Below are positions 1 to 63,821 of a DNA stretch of 64,000 nt, in pieces. This stretch comes from Centipeda infelix ATCC 43532 (GTDB taxonomy: Bacteria > Bacillota > Negativicutes > Selenomonadales > Selenomonadaceae), in assembly GCF_000234095.1 (NCBI RefSeq), contig NZ_JH376799.1:277217-341216 (forward strand), in the 5' to 3' direction. Every line of letters starts with the position of its first letter. The stretch's first letter is position 1. A model generated the notes under the pieces. The model searched no databases. It saw only the letters and a program-made list of their open reading frames with translations, and was not told the origin of the DNA. The position numbers and the translations under genes were made by a program.

Positions 1-1336
1 GTTTGACAACCTCCACAATCGCCCCGCAGACCTCCTCGAGCTGTGTATGATCGCTGCCCTCCGCCATCACGCGAATGAGCGGCTCCGTACCCGAGGGGCG
101 TACGAGTACGCGTCCGTCGCTCCCGAGGATGCGCTCCCCCTCGGCAATGGCGGCGCGGATGGCGGTATTTTCCGCCCAGCCCTCCTTCGTCTTGACACGC
201 ACGTTGACGAGCAGCTGCGGATAGGTTGTCATCATCGCATTCAGCTCCGACGCCTTCTTCCCGCTGCGGGAGAGCGCCGCAAGCACCTGCAGTGCCGTGA
301 TAAGCCCGTCGCCCGTCGTTGCGTACTCGGCAAAGATGATGTGCCCCGACTGCTCGCCGCCGATCGTATAGCCGTTTGCACGCATGGACTCGAGGACATA
401 GCGGTCCCCGACTGCCGTCACCTCAACGCGTCCGCCAAGCTCTGCGATCGCCTTGTGGAATCCGATGTTCGCCATCACCGTTGTCACAACGGTTTTGTGC
501 GGCAGCCGTCCCGCATGGATCATCTCGGAGGCGCAGGCGACGAGGATGTGGTCGCCGTCGATCAGCTCACCTTTTTCATCGAGGCAGAGACAGCGGTCGG
601 CATCCCCGTCATGTGCGATGCCGATGTCCGCACCGCGCTCGAGTACCGTACGGCGCAGCGAGTCCAAATGTGTCGAGCCACAGCCGTCGTTGATATTCAC
701 ACCATTCGGCAGTGCATGGATCACCTTCACCTCTGCGCCGAGACGGCGGAGCACTTTCGGCATCGCCTCATAGGCGGCACCGTTCGCGCAGTCGAGCACA
801 ATCTTCATCCCGTCGAACCGCTCCCGGCAGGTGCTCACCACATAGTCGATATACTGGTTGAGGAGATCGTCTCGATACTCCACGACCCCAATGTCCTTGC
901 CCGTCGGGCGCGCGGCATCGTCATTCGTTTGGAGGCGACGCACGAGTATTTCGAGCTCATCTTCCACCGCATCGGGCAGCTTGTAGCCGTCCCCGCCAAA
1001 AAACTTGATCCCATTGTCCGGAAATGGATTGTGCGAAGCGGAGATCACAATGCCCGCCTGCATGCGGTGTTCGCGCGCAAGATACGCGACCGCAGGGGTT
1101 GGAACAACGCCCGCAAGGATCGCAATGCCGCCCGCCGAGCAAATTCCCGCCGTCAGTGCCGCCTCGAACATCTCGCCCGAGATACGCGTGTCACGTCCGA
1201 TCAGAATGCGCGGGCGCACCTCCGACTGTGCACCGAAGTAAAGCGTCGCCGCACGTCCGAGATGATATGCCAGCTCTGCTGTCAGCTCCGTATTTGCCTC
1301 ACCGCGTACGCCATCCGTACCAAAAAGTCTCATCAT
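1..1336 (-). CDS. glmM: Phosphoglucosamine mutase GlmM (3' end cut by window edge)
   Basis: Interconverts glucosamine-6-phosphate and glucosamine-1-phosphate, the step before UDP-GlcNAc and peptidoglycan synthesis, in the cytoplasm. The N-terminus reads MMRLFGTDGVRG; the phosphoserine loop SASHNP is at about residues 99-104 (catalytic Ser ~101) and the metal loop DGDAD near residue 244. The C-terminal phosphate-binding segment RPSGTEPLIRVMAEG is present. 445 codons lie in the window, so only a few residues are missing (family ~450). ATG at 1336 or 1333 both follow an AGGGGG Shine-Dalgarno. It is the last visible gene of the cdaA-cdaR-dehydrogenase-glmM operon, 40 bp behind its neighbour, an arrangement known to tie c-di-AMP synthesis to wall precursor supply. 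Confidence 0.97.
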   Translation of the reverse strand, partial: MMRLFGTDGVRGEANTELTAELAYHLGRAATLYFGAQSEVRPRILIGRDTRISGEMFEAALTAGICSAGGIAILAGVVPTPAVAYLAREHRMQAGIVISASHNPFPDNGIKFFGGDGYKLPDAVEDELEILVRRLQTNDDAARPTGKDIGVVEYRDDLLNQYIDYVVSTCRERFDGMKIVLDCANGAAYEAMPKVLRRLGAEVKVIHALPNGVNINDGCGSTHLDSLRRTVLERGADIGIAHDGDADRCLCLDEKGELIDGDHILVACASEMIHAGRLPHKTVVTTVMANIGFHKAIAELGGRVEVTAVGDRYVLESMRANGYTIGGEQSGHIIFAEYATTGDGLITALQVLAALSRSGKKASELNAMMTTYPQLLVNVRVKTKEGWAENTAIRAAIAEGERILGSDGRVLVRPSGTEPLIRVMAEGSDHTQLEEVCGAIVEVVK

Positions 1337-15176: not shown

Positions 15177-15338
15177 GGAAGCACTGATAAATTCAGCCAC
15201 GCCATCTTGACGTATCTTTTTTGCCCGCACTGTGTCGACAAATCCTCCACATAGCCCTTGCTATGCGTCCGGTTTGTCTCCTTGTTCGGACGAAAAAATC
15301 TACGCCAATCTGACGGACTTCATTTTATCAGCGATTCC
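15177..15338. mobile_element. Palindromic 162-bp element, copy A
   Basis: Non-coding element with 15-bp terminal inverted repeats (GGAAGCACTGATAAA / TTTATCAGCGATTCC) flanked by a TAAA duplication (15173-15176 and 15339-15342). The two halves are complementary over most of their length, with CATAGC/GCTATG-type arms at the centre. Copies B (42664) and C (42987) are near-identical; D (63659) is a diverged relative. It lies between the methyltransferase gene and the flagellar promoter, 12 bp upstream of the -35. No transposase is encoded, so it is MITE-like. Confidence 0.85.
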
Positions 15339-33627: not shown

Positions 33628-33685
33628 ACATAAATCGTCCCAAGAACGCACTGATAACATCATATCAGTGTTTCCTTTCATAGAC

Positions 33686-33828
33686 GCGCCTTTTCTCATC
33701 CAGACTGCGAAGGCAGCTACCTTCTTCACTGTCGGCTTCGGAGTTTCACCGAATCGTGCCACTCTCACGAATGGCTTGCGGGCTGTACCGCCGGTGGGGA
33801 TTTGCACCCCGCCTCAAAGAGCATCGTT
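33686..33828 (-). promoter_or_regulatory. FMN riboswitch (RFN element)
   Basis: Minus-strand signature blocks in order: AGGCGGGGTGCAAATCCCC, ACCGGCGGTA, AGCCCGCAAGCC, GATTCGGTGAAACTCCGAAG, CCGACAGT and AGTCTGGATGAGA, the conserved RFN motifs. FMN binding should favour the terminator at 33590-33627 and switch off ribD-ribE-ribBA-DJ-1-ribH. Confidence 0.96.
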
Positions 33829-41364: not shown

Positions 41365-42549
41365 TTACAGACCGGCTTCCTTCTTCAGCAGCTCCGCCTT
41401 ATCTGTCTTCTCCCACGGAAGATCGACATCCGTGCGGCCGAAGTGCCCATACGCCGCCGTCTGGCGGTAGATGGGACGACGCAGGTCGAGCATCTTGATA
41501 ATGCCCGCAGGACGCAGATCAAACGTCTTCTGTACAAGATCGACGATCTTCTCCTCGTCGATCTTTCCCGTGCCGAACGTGTCGACCATGATGGAGACGG
41601 GATGTGCGACACCGATCGCATACGCAAGCTGGATCTCAACGCGATCCGCAAGTCCCGCTGCGACGATGTTCTTCGCAACATAGCGCGCCGCATACGCCGC
41701 ACTGCGGTCAACCTTCGTGGGATCCTTGCCCGAGAACGCGCCGCCGCCGTGGCGTGCCCAACCGCCGTAGGTATCGACGATGATCTTGCGCCCCGTGAGC
41801 CCCGAGTCGCCGTGCGGGCCGCCGATGACGAACTTGCCTGTTGGATTGACGAAGTATTTCGTCTCCGCACGCAGGAGCTCTGCGGGGACGATCTCCTTGA
41901 TGACCTTTTCGATCATGTCCTTGCGGATCGTCGCAAGGTCAACCGCCTCGTCGTGCTGCGTCGAGATGACAATGGTGTCGACGTAGACGGGCTTGCCGTC
42001 CTCGTACGCTACCGTGACCTGGGTCTTTCCGTCGGGACGCAGATACGCGAGCGTGCCGTTCTTGCGTACGTCCGTCAGGCGGCGTGCAAGCTTATGCGCG
42101 AGTACGGTCGTGAGCGGCATATACTCGGGCGTTTCGTTCGTCGCATAGCCGAACATCATGCCCTGGTCGCCCGCACCAATCGCCTCTGCTGCGTCCATCT
42201 TCCCTTCGCGCGACTCGATTGCCTGATTGACGCCCTGCGCGATATCCGGCGACTGCTCGTCGAGCGAGACAAGGATGCCGCAGGTGTCCGCATCGAAGCC
42301 GTAGCTGGCGTTTGTATAGCCGATCTCACGCACTGTCTGACGGATGATCTTCGGGATGTCGACATAGCAACTGGTTGAGATCTCACCGACGACGTGCGCC
42401 TGTCCCGTCGTGACGAGTGTCTCACACGCAACGCGCCCCTGTGGATCCTGTGCGAGGATGGCATCAAGGATACTGTCCGAGATCTGGTCGGCAAGTTTGT
42501 CCGGATGCCCCTCGGTGACGGACTCGGACGTAAAGAGCATTTTCTTCAT
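41365..42549 (-). CDS. metK: S-adenosylmethionine synthetase
   Basis: Makes SAM from methionine and ATP. 394 residues, standard. Motifs: [32 protein letters not shown] and the metal/phosphate loop [22 protein letters not shown] follows AAGGGAGG. Preceded by a SAM-I riboswitch whose aptamer contains a 162-bp palindromic element, and by an intrinsic terminator. Confidence 0.98.
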
Positions 42550-42602
42550 TTGGAACCTCCCTTAGTTCGTAAAAGATTTGTAGAAAACCTCATTTCCATA
42601 AG

Positions 42603-42629
42603 AAAAACCTCCCTGCAAGATAAGGGAGG
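42603..42629 (-). terminator. Terminator of the metK SAM-I riboswitch
   Basis: Minus-strand stem CCTCCCT/AGGGAGG with an 8-9 nt loop, then TTTTT. Its 5' arm CCTCCCTTA is also exactly complementary to the metK Shine-Dalgarno region TAAGGGAGG (42564-42556). Confidence 0.9.
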
Positions 42630-42643
42630 CTGTGACTGCCGCT

Positions 42644-42911
42644 CTCATCTCATAGGCACTTTAGGAAGCACTGATAAATTCAGCCGCGCCATCTTAGCGT
42701 ATTTTTTTTGCCCGCTTTTTGTCGGCAAATCCTCCGCATAGCTTTGGCTATGCGTCCAGTTTGCCTCCTCAATCGGACAGAAAAATCTACGCCAATCTGA
42801 CGGACTTCATTTTATCAGCGATTCCTTTACCTAAAGGAATTGGCACCGTTGGCAAAGTCGCCATGGTTGCCGCAGCTTCATCGGGCCATTCCCTCCACTG
42901 CTCTGGATGAG
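42644..42911 (-). promoter_or_regulatory. SAM-I (S-box) riboswitch of metK, interrupted by element B
   Basis: Minus-strand blocks: P1 5' strand CTCATC (42911-42906), CAGAGCAGTGGAGGGA, ATGGCCCGATGAAGC, GCGGCAACC, GGTGCCAATTCC, TAGG of P4, then a 162-bp insertion plus target duplication, then CCTA of P4 and the P1 3' strand GATGAG (42649-42644). P1 pairs perfectly across the insertion (6 bp). Without the insertion the aptamer would have a normal length (~100 nt). SAM binding should favour the terminator at 42603-42629. Confidence 0.93.
42664..42825. mobile_element. Palindromic 162-bp element, copy B (inside the SAM-I aptamer)
   Basis: Same terminal repeats as copy A (GGAAGCACTGATAAA at one end, TTTATCAGCGATTCC at the other) with TTTA duplications at 42660-42663 and 42826-42829. 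On the metK transcript it falls between the two strands of P4. Confidence 0.88.
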
Positions 42912-42934
42912 GTATATTCTCTTCTATGTTTCGC

Positions 42935-42963
42935 ATTGTAACGAATGAGCGCCGCGTTGTCAA
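42935..42963 (-). promoter_or_regulatory. Promoter of metK
   Basis: Minus-strand TTGACA (42963-42958), 17 bp, TACAAT (42940-42935). The start lies just before P1 of the riboswitch. Confidence 0.9.
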
Positions 42964-42986: not shown

Positions 42987-43147
42987 GGAAGCACTGATAA
43001 ATTCAGCACCGCCATCTTGACGCATCTTTTTTGCCCGCACTGTGTCGGCAAATCCTCCACATAGCTTTAGCTATGCGTCCGGTTTGCCTCCTTGTTCGGA
43101 CGAAAAATCTACGCCAATCTGACGGACTTCATTTTATCAGCGATTCC
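42987..43147. mobile_element. Palindromic 161-bp element, copy C (coaBC-metK spacer)
   Basis: Near-identical to copies A and B, flanked by TTAA (42983-42986 and 43148-43151). One target duplication supplies the TAA stop of coaBC. It begins 24 bp upstream of the metK -35. Copies B and C lie only 161 bp apart. Confidence 0.88.
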
Positions 43148-63658: not shown

Positions 63659-63821
63659 GGGAAATTTCGGTTCATTCAGCCCCCATCTCAGCGCATCTTT
63701 TTCGCGCTGTCTGTGTCAGCAAATCCTCCACATAGCACCTCGGCTATGCGTCCGGTTTGCTTCCTTGACAGCCCCAAAAATCTACGCCAATCTGAGGAGC
63801 TTCATCGAACCGTCATTTCCC
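63659..63821. mobile_element. Diverged palindromic element, copy D (tuf-rpsJ spacer)
   Basis: The interior shares with copies A-C the blocks GCAAATCCTCCACATAGC, GGCTATGCGTCCGGTTTGC and AAAAATCTACGCCAATCTGA, but the ends are different: GGGAAAT-TT-CGGTTC and, inverted, GGGAAAT-GA-CGGTTC. 163 bp. No clear target duplication. It occupies the gap between tuf's terminator and rpsJ. Confidence 0.7.

Follow-up and report, generated by a model that had tools for sequence, protein, structure and literature searches.

The locus studied here raises the question of whether a riboswitch that has received a mobile element inside its aptamer can still act as a switch. The window, which is the whole stretch of 64,000 nucleotides that was analysed, carries a 162-bp palindromic element (element B) within the SAM-I riboswitch of metK. 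The explanation that we consider probable is a tolerated MITE insertion in the P4 loop of this riboswitch, by which P4 is extended, the predicted fold is kept, and SAM switching is most likely retained.

Organization of the metK leader and the insertion site

The features of the metK leader are shown in Table 1. On the minus strand, a promoter-like site, the SAM-I aptamer, and a terminator-like site were identified, all upstream of metK. The gene context is that of a SAM-I riboswitch, with metK downstream, the terminator-like site, and the putative alternative pairing between GATGAG and CTTATC. Promoter boxes as in the window were also seen in five of the 13 relatives, which are those with the upstream part examined. 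The named relatives of the metK gene include Selenomonas ruminantium (85-86%).

Element B separates the core block GGTGCCAATTCC from the P1 3' strand GATGAG, and a perfect TAAA lies on each side of it. The earlier note had described a 162-bp palindromic element with TTTA duplications inside the metK riboswitch, and both the element and its place were confirmed. The P4 5' strand and the 5' TAAA overlap by one base, with which the former ends and the latter begins. The insertion adds 166 nt between the core and the P1 3' strand. The joined site, from which the element and one TAAA are left out, is CCTTTAGGTAAAGTGCCTATGAGATGAG. It consists of a 5-bp P4 (the last pair is U-G) and a 5-nt loop, followed by P1.

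Table 1. Coordinates of the features of the metK leader and of the elements in cobalamin riboswitch loops. Positions are those of the window except where a locus (L) is given.
Feature	Position	Strand	Remarks
Element A, second full copy	42987..43147	-	90% to element B; target duplication TTAA; 23 bases upstream of the -35 box
Promoter-like site	42935..42963	-	TTGACA, 17 nt, TACAAT (11/12)
SAM-I aptamer, 5' part	42834..42913	-	P1 5' strand (42906-42913), P2, P3, core GGTGCCAATTCC
P1 5' strand	42911-42906	-	CTCATC
P4 5' strand	42829..42833	-	TAGGT
Target duplication, 5' copy	42826..42829	-	TAAA (TTTA on the plus strand)
Element B, palindromic IS5-type MITE, 162 bp	42664..42825	-	strongly folding orientation relative to metK RNA
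Weak terminator-like hairpin in element B	42802-42790	-	CGTCAGATTGGCG then TAGATTTTTC
Target duplication, 3' copy	42660..42663	-	TAAA
P4 3' strand	42653..42657	-	GCCTA
P1 3' strand	42644..42649	-	GATGAG
Likely antiterminator	42619-42624	-	CTTATC, putative alternative partner of GATGAG of the P1 3' strand
Intrinsic terminator-like site	42606..42631	-	expression platform
metK, methionine adenosyltransferase	41365..42549	-	TIGR01034, 605 bits
Cobalamin loop locus, G007	L281 572-910		full element
Cobalamin loop locus, G004	L282 ~470-818		full element
Cobalamin loop locus, G005	L295 1419-1633		trimmed element

Comparison with relatives and covariance scoring

A single SAM-I match (RF00162) was found per genome in each of the 14 genomes of the genus, and it lies at the metK leader. 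The metK leaders of the relatives were compared as the earlier note had advised, and P4 is uninterrupted in all 13 same-genus relatives. These leaders back the three structural claims that had been made for the site, which concern the position of the element within the P4 loop, the empty site that is restored on its removal, and the integrity of P1.

The 13 relatives scored 84.7-92.3 bits against RF00162, and the window scored 73.7 bits, which is still over the cut-off despite the insert. The 13 relatives were aligned with the joined aptamer of the window (insert left out), and 88 columns are invariant among the 13. The window deviates at one of these 88 columns, by a C to T change in P4 that keeps a standard pair, and its 5' part matches the relatives at all invariant columns. 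The joined aptamer forms 29 of the 31 SAM-I pairs, as in the relatives. None of the 13 distinct rows forms the outermost two of the P1 pairs in the Rfam model, which leaves six pairs for P1 in these leaders.

The spacing between core and P1 was also compared among 50 metK-linked SAM-I leaders of this and other families, which were parsed with a crude pattern and include at least two identical sequences. The spacing is 30 nt or less in 46 of them. Three further leaders (L184, L156, and L054) have a normal P4 that the pattern failed to recognize, where L054 was judged from an identical sequence. The long spacing of 187 nt is unique to the window among the 50 leaders.

Covariance scoring had been proposed as a means of judging the insertion site. 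It was run and proved misleading. The RF00162 match of the window (42804-42913) appears complete, but the initial 22 bases of the element supply both its P4 3' half and its P1 3' strand, and the genuine counterparts are located about 160 bases beyond. Because of this borrowing, the Rfam score was dropped as the judge of the site and the placement was settled by the relatives. Automatic annotation may likewise call a riboswitch complete while its 3' half comes from a transposon.

Family and origin of the element

Judged from its sequence, element B is a high-copy, non-autonomous MITE of the IS5 type. The mobile origin that had been suggested for it is backed by its copies, their target duplications, and IS5-family insertion sequences with matching ends. 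The genome of the window has 137 candidate copies, and all 40 of those that were scored match the family. The left 18-mer of the element was found at 96 places with at most two mismatches, compared with 0 for the reversed control. Matches to the family were identified in 13 of the 14 genomes of the genus (weakly in G003) and in none of 27 genomes outside the genus.

A set of 54 full-length copies was obtained from 60 fetched stretches and the window. Identical 4-bp flanks are present in 36 copies and absent in 18, and identical flanks of 2, 3, 5, and 6 bp were found in 4, 2, 0, and 0 of the 54 copies, respectively. The 4-bp target duplications are mostly TA-centred (TTAA in 10, TTTA in 5, TTAG in 5, and others). 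The target rule of IS5 is YTAR.

Transposase loci of the DUF772 type were identified in the relatives (n = 19). Both element ends lie about 1.25 kb apart in five of these loci, fewer ends were found by the scan in six, and none in eight. One transposase that was examined belongs to the IS5 family (NF033581, 309 bits against a cut-off of 140). In the search for the DUF772 type, matches are present in six of the 14 genomes of the genus and absent from the draft genome of the window. The present family is similar to IS5-family transposons and MITEs in its 4-bp TA-centred duplications, its matching terminal repeats, and the IS5 transposase present in the relatives, and its internal hairpin is conserved as a strand-specific fold.

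The nearest copies to element B in other species are 98% identical to it, and the nearest other copy in its own genome, among those examined, is 96% identical. An old and a recent metK insertion are indistinguishable, as the insertion is found in one genome only, its target duplication is perfect, and copies with 98% identity exist elsewhere. In the own genome, 26 of 56 elements have the 3' end of a called gene no more than 20 nt away, which might be expected because the targets hold TAA or TAG. Two further copies were identified in the window, a full one at 15177-15338 (target duplication TTTA) and a partial one at 63674-63805.

Strand-specific hairpin of the element

Element B folded alone gives 59 pairs (27 GC, 26 AT, and 6 GT), and the figure of about 79 pairs that the earlier note had guessed is too high. 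The stretch 42660-42835 (176 nt) folds with -78.3 kcal/mol compared with -42.3 +/- 4.1 kcal/mol for 200 shuffles (z -8.8), and the stretch 42600-42916 gives a z of -7.4.

Covariation was counted over 56 consensus pairs in 54 copies, where the counts are inflated by kinship among the copies. Standard pairs occupy 98.5% of the cells. Double changes were found at 12 pairs (7.2 +/- 1.3 in shuffles) and in 83 cells (23.1 +/- 3.4 in shuffles), and neither value is reached by any of 500 shuffles. Slid structures give 3-11 in the double-change comparison. Further pair types, a weaker measure of covariation, are reached by 29 of the 500 shuffles. The copies hold 362 G-U cells and 21 A-C cells. This excess suggests that the fold is maintained on one strand, in single-stranded form as RNA (or DNA), whereas a palindrome kept solely as double-stranded DNA should exhibit the two in roughly equal numbers.

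The better-folding strand is the same in all 54 copies (mean -74.4 against -46.0 kcal/mol), and it is this strand that metK RNA carries. By a crude gene finder, no orientation bias of the elements relative to genes was detectable in the own genome (upstream gene in the same orientation in 29 and opposite in 22, p 0.40), so a host-wide orientation preference does not explain the strand-specific hairpin. Of 82 elements, none falls within a gene called by the same crude finder. Element B and element A each have, close to the 5' end, a weak terminator-like hairpin followed by a U5 tract (42790-42802 and 43112-43124).

Predicted effect of the insert on the aptamer

The folding results were calculated at equilibrium, with neither ligand nor tertiary contacts taken into account. 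The native SAM-I pairs can be imposed at a cost of 0.71 kcal/mol, whether the element is present or left out. Dinucleotide-shuffled inserts (n = 200) have a mean cost of 4.8, and two of the 200 are as cheap as the element. The reversed element raises the cost of the native fold to 2.2 kcal/mol and brings the probability of P4 down to 0.08. The probability of P1 is equalled or exceeded in 128 of the 200 shuffled inserts. P1 alone hence does not discriminate, and the shuffles lose P4 and other pairs rather than P1.

In the just-complete aptamer, the probability of P1 is 0.85 for the natural and the empty leader alike. At 20 nt past completion of the aptamer, the alternative fold wins in both (P1 0.04 in the natural and 0.02 in the empty leader). 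Growing transcripts keep P2 and P3 at most lengths, with dips of P2 to 0.46 (natural, 266 nt) and 0.33 (empty). In the SAM-free fold of the full-length leader, the natural form gives a probability of 0.08 for P1 and 0.42 for the antiterminator pairing, and the empty form 0.05 and 0.23, respectively, so the balance of the switch is not exactly equal. The weak terminator-like site of the element could cause the polymerase to pause, or to terminate some transcripts, ahead of P1 synthesis, and it is the chief point against pure neutrality.

A decoy P1, formed by ATGA of the element and TCAT of the P1 5' strand, was considered because the RF00162 match takes its P1 3' strand from the element. It was rejected, as its pairing probability never exceeds 0.05 in the 29 transcripts of different length that were folded for the natural leader; the shortest of these transcripts stop before the decoy. 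An energy scan with the element at every position of the aptamer did not discriminate, with many positions costing 0. The position in P4 is largely explained by target choice, since four of the five target-like 4-mers in the 106-nt aptamer lie in or beside P4 (by a list of 14 such 4-mers, hand-typed from the observed target duplications and related words).

Insertions in cobalamin riboswitches

The genus holds 114 cobalamin matches, and 82 loci were examined, 30 as given loci and the rest picked mostly by length or doubt. A full element was identified in the loop that caps the hairpin following P3 in the cobalamin riboswitches of two genomes, G007 and G004, and it is in the sense orientation in both. 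The RF00174 match in G007 spans the element (67.3 bits). The match in G004 is misplaced (58.5 bits), and the element boundaries there equal those in G007 by alignment. The gene after the G007 leader encodes a TonB-dependent receptor (Pfam Plug domain), for which the best NCBIfam match is a B12 receptor model at 90.8 bits, below the cut-off. The ORF after the G004 leader resembles that in G007.

Close orthologues of this cobalamin leader (at least 89%) were found in five genomes. The corresponding position is occupied in G005 by a 40-nt hairpin built from both ends of the element, and in G008 and G012 by a plain short loop from which the element is absent. The filled alleles of G007, G004, and G005 have their boundaries and an altered 3' end in common, which suggests one insertion event. 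No clear target duplication remains in these three alleles. The elements of G004 and G007 exhibit 11 differences. Four pairs differ and all four still pair, one of them via a double change. The differences occupy 5 of 122 paired and 6 of 44 unpaired columns, which is not significant (Fisher p 0.069).

The distribution of the cobalamin insertion is patchy and out of step with the metK distances. G007 and G008 are 97% identical at the cobalamin leader and 87.8% identical at metK, and G008 is without the element. Given these identities and the empty loop of G008, vertical descent was not assumed, and locus exchange or loss is likely.

A further full element was observed in G002 (L259 1692-1852), where it starts 2 nt past the cobalamin aptamer match and before the expression platform, in the sense orientation. 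Its duplication is imperfect, with GTAA before the element and again one base after its end. There are three independent full-length sites in or beside a riboswitch and all are sense, for which the chance is 1 in 8. A fragment of the element was also observed in G007 (L269 1612-1663), 5 nt upstream of a TPP riboswitch and in the opposite orientation, so the sense tally varies with what is counted.

Probable tolerance of the insertion and alternative explanations

In the proposed course of the metK insertion, a non-autonomous IS5-type MITE would have used a TAAA in the P4 apical loop as its target. The transcribed strand is the strongly folding one, and the insert is predicted to form a self-contained hairpin atop P4, for which reason it is most likely tolerated. 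P4 would be lengthened, and P1, P2, P3, and the switching sequences appear unchanged both in sequence and in the modelled fold. The riboswitch most likely still binds SAM and terminates metK transcription. The tolerance that the earlier note had argued for is thus retained as a prediction, to which the in silico folding and the second riboswitch case, that of cobalamin, both point.

The strongest alternative, which we regard as unlikely, is that the insertion has broken the riboswitch, that metK is expressed constitutively or is silenced in part by the terminator-like site of the element, and that the leader looks intact because the event is recent. A broken switch is consistent with the perfect target duplication, the presence of the insertion in a single genome, the 98% identity of the element to copies in other species, and its weak terminator-like site. 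Loss of repression need not kill, as metK would probably be constitutively on and the cell might survive. However, one of 88 otherwise invariant columns is altered, with its pairing intact, and the predicted cost of the fold is the same with and without the element. The analogous cobalamin insertion also argues for tolerance, as it is common to G004 and G007 and its four differing pairs all still pair.

It is improbable that the element has been co-opted, whether through a delay of P1 formation by about 166 nt, through a pause, or through an RNase III site that alters the life of the mRNA. The 166 nt between core and P1 3' strand, the U5 tract behind a small hairpin, and the strand-specific hairpin would all fit such a role, and the excerpted text of one paper proposes RNase III action on neisserial NEMIS stem-loops (PMC2229807). 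However, the metK insertion is present in none of the 13 relatives, and no sequence change hints at adaptation.

An assembly artefact, in which a repeat copy was misjoined into the metK leader of a draft genome with 29 contigs and many repeat copies, is very improbable, as the metK leader lies on both flanks with TAAA on each, and element B is distinct from its nearest examined own-genome copy (96% identical).

Comparison with known systems

The insertion in P4, which is probably tolerated, is similar to the 'variable insertions' of riboswitches, which have been described as long non-conserved inserts at specific sites, typically stem-loops, that leave the aptamer core undisturbed (Barrick and Breaker 2007, PMC2258182). 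The metK insert is likewise predicted to form a stem-loop and to spare the aptamer core. Side arms vary in length and number within a riboswitch class, and the origin of variable insertions is left open in the excerpted text of that paper (PMC2258182), whereas the metK arm is traceable to a mobile element by its target duplication and its empty relatives. The present study also adds a second riboswitch with full and trimmed forms of the insert.

Intervening sequences of 23S rRNA are removed by processing. One such sequence of 428 nt with an ORF has been described in a 23S rRNA helix (PMC4990558, in excerpt), and it is likewise a selfish insertion into a helix of a structured RNA. Unlike the metK element, it concerns an rRNA, is not a MITE, and is not regulatory. 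Palindromic elements of 105-146 bp that are possibly neutral have been reported within the tmRNA and RNase P (M1) RNA genes of Rickettsia (PMC2229807, in excerpt). They are also palindromic repeats in structured RNA genes, but they belong to other bacteria and another repeat family and lie in non-regulatory RNAs, whereas the metK case concerns a ligand-sensing aptamer with known empty sites.

In front of the pneumococcal trp operon, two T-box riboswitches have a BOX element between them, where continued regulation is suggested by the RNA-seq of the authors (PMC3049150, in excerpt). Both cases place a mobile hairpin repeat within a riboswitch leader; the BOX element lies between two riboswitches, whereas the metK element lies inside an aptamer helix. 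A review of prokaryotic MITEs, in its excerpted text, regards the formation of riboswitches by MITEs as conceivable and points to potential T-box motifs in BOX elements (PMC10969869). No prior report of a MITE inside a riboswitch aptamer was found in the titles and abstract openings of openly licensed PMC papers.

The cobalamin insertion, which is found in more than one species with its pairing kept and is trimmed in one lineage, suggests a plausible source of variable stem-loops. It is possible, and we put it forward tentatively, that hairpin MITEs are a source of new peripheral riboswitch arms in general. They would enter apical loops at TA-rich targets, be kept if the folding strand is transcribed, co-vary, and shrink to short hairpins, where the metK P4 would be a fresh stage and the cobalamin leaders of G007, G004, and G005 later ones. 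How riboswitch side arms originate can be put to the test with these naturally occurring full, trimmed, and empty cobalamin leaders, together with the metK leaders that lack the insert.

Other observations on structured RNAs

In the own genome, 60 stretches around element ends were scanned with Rfam, and no element was found inside another structured RNA. Five Rfam matches lie near elements in these stretches (three tRNAs and two cobalamin riboswitches). None of 17 TPP loci has an element inside the TPP aptamer. The L4 loops of the cobalamin riboswitches in L316, L317, L321, L323, and L325 have short variable hairpins, for example GGGAATCACTGATTTC, that are similar to the element terminus GGAATCRCTGAT. 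These hairpins could be remnants of the element or a chance likeness. An FMN riboswitch was also identified in the window (33684-33824, minus strand, 81.7 bits), and its last side hairpin has 21 nt that are absent from the model.
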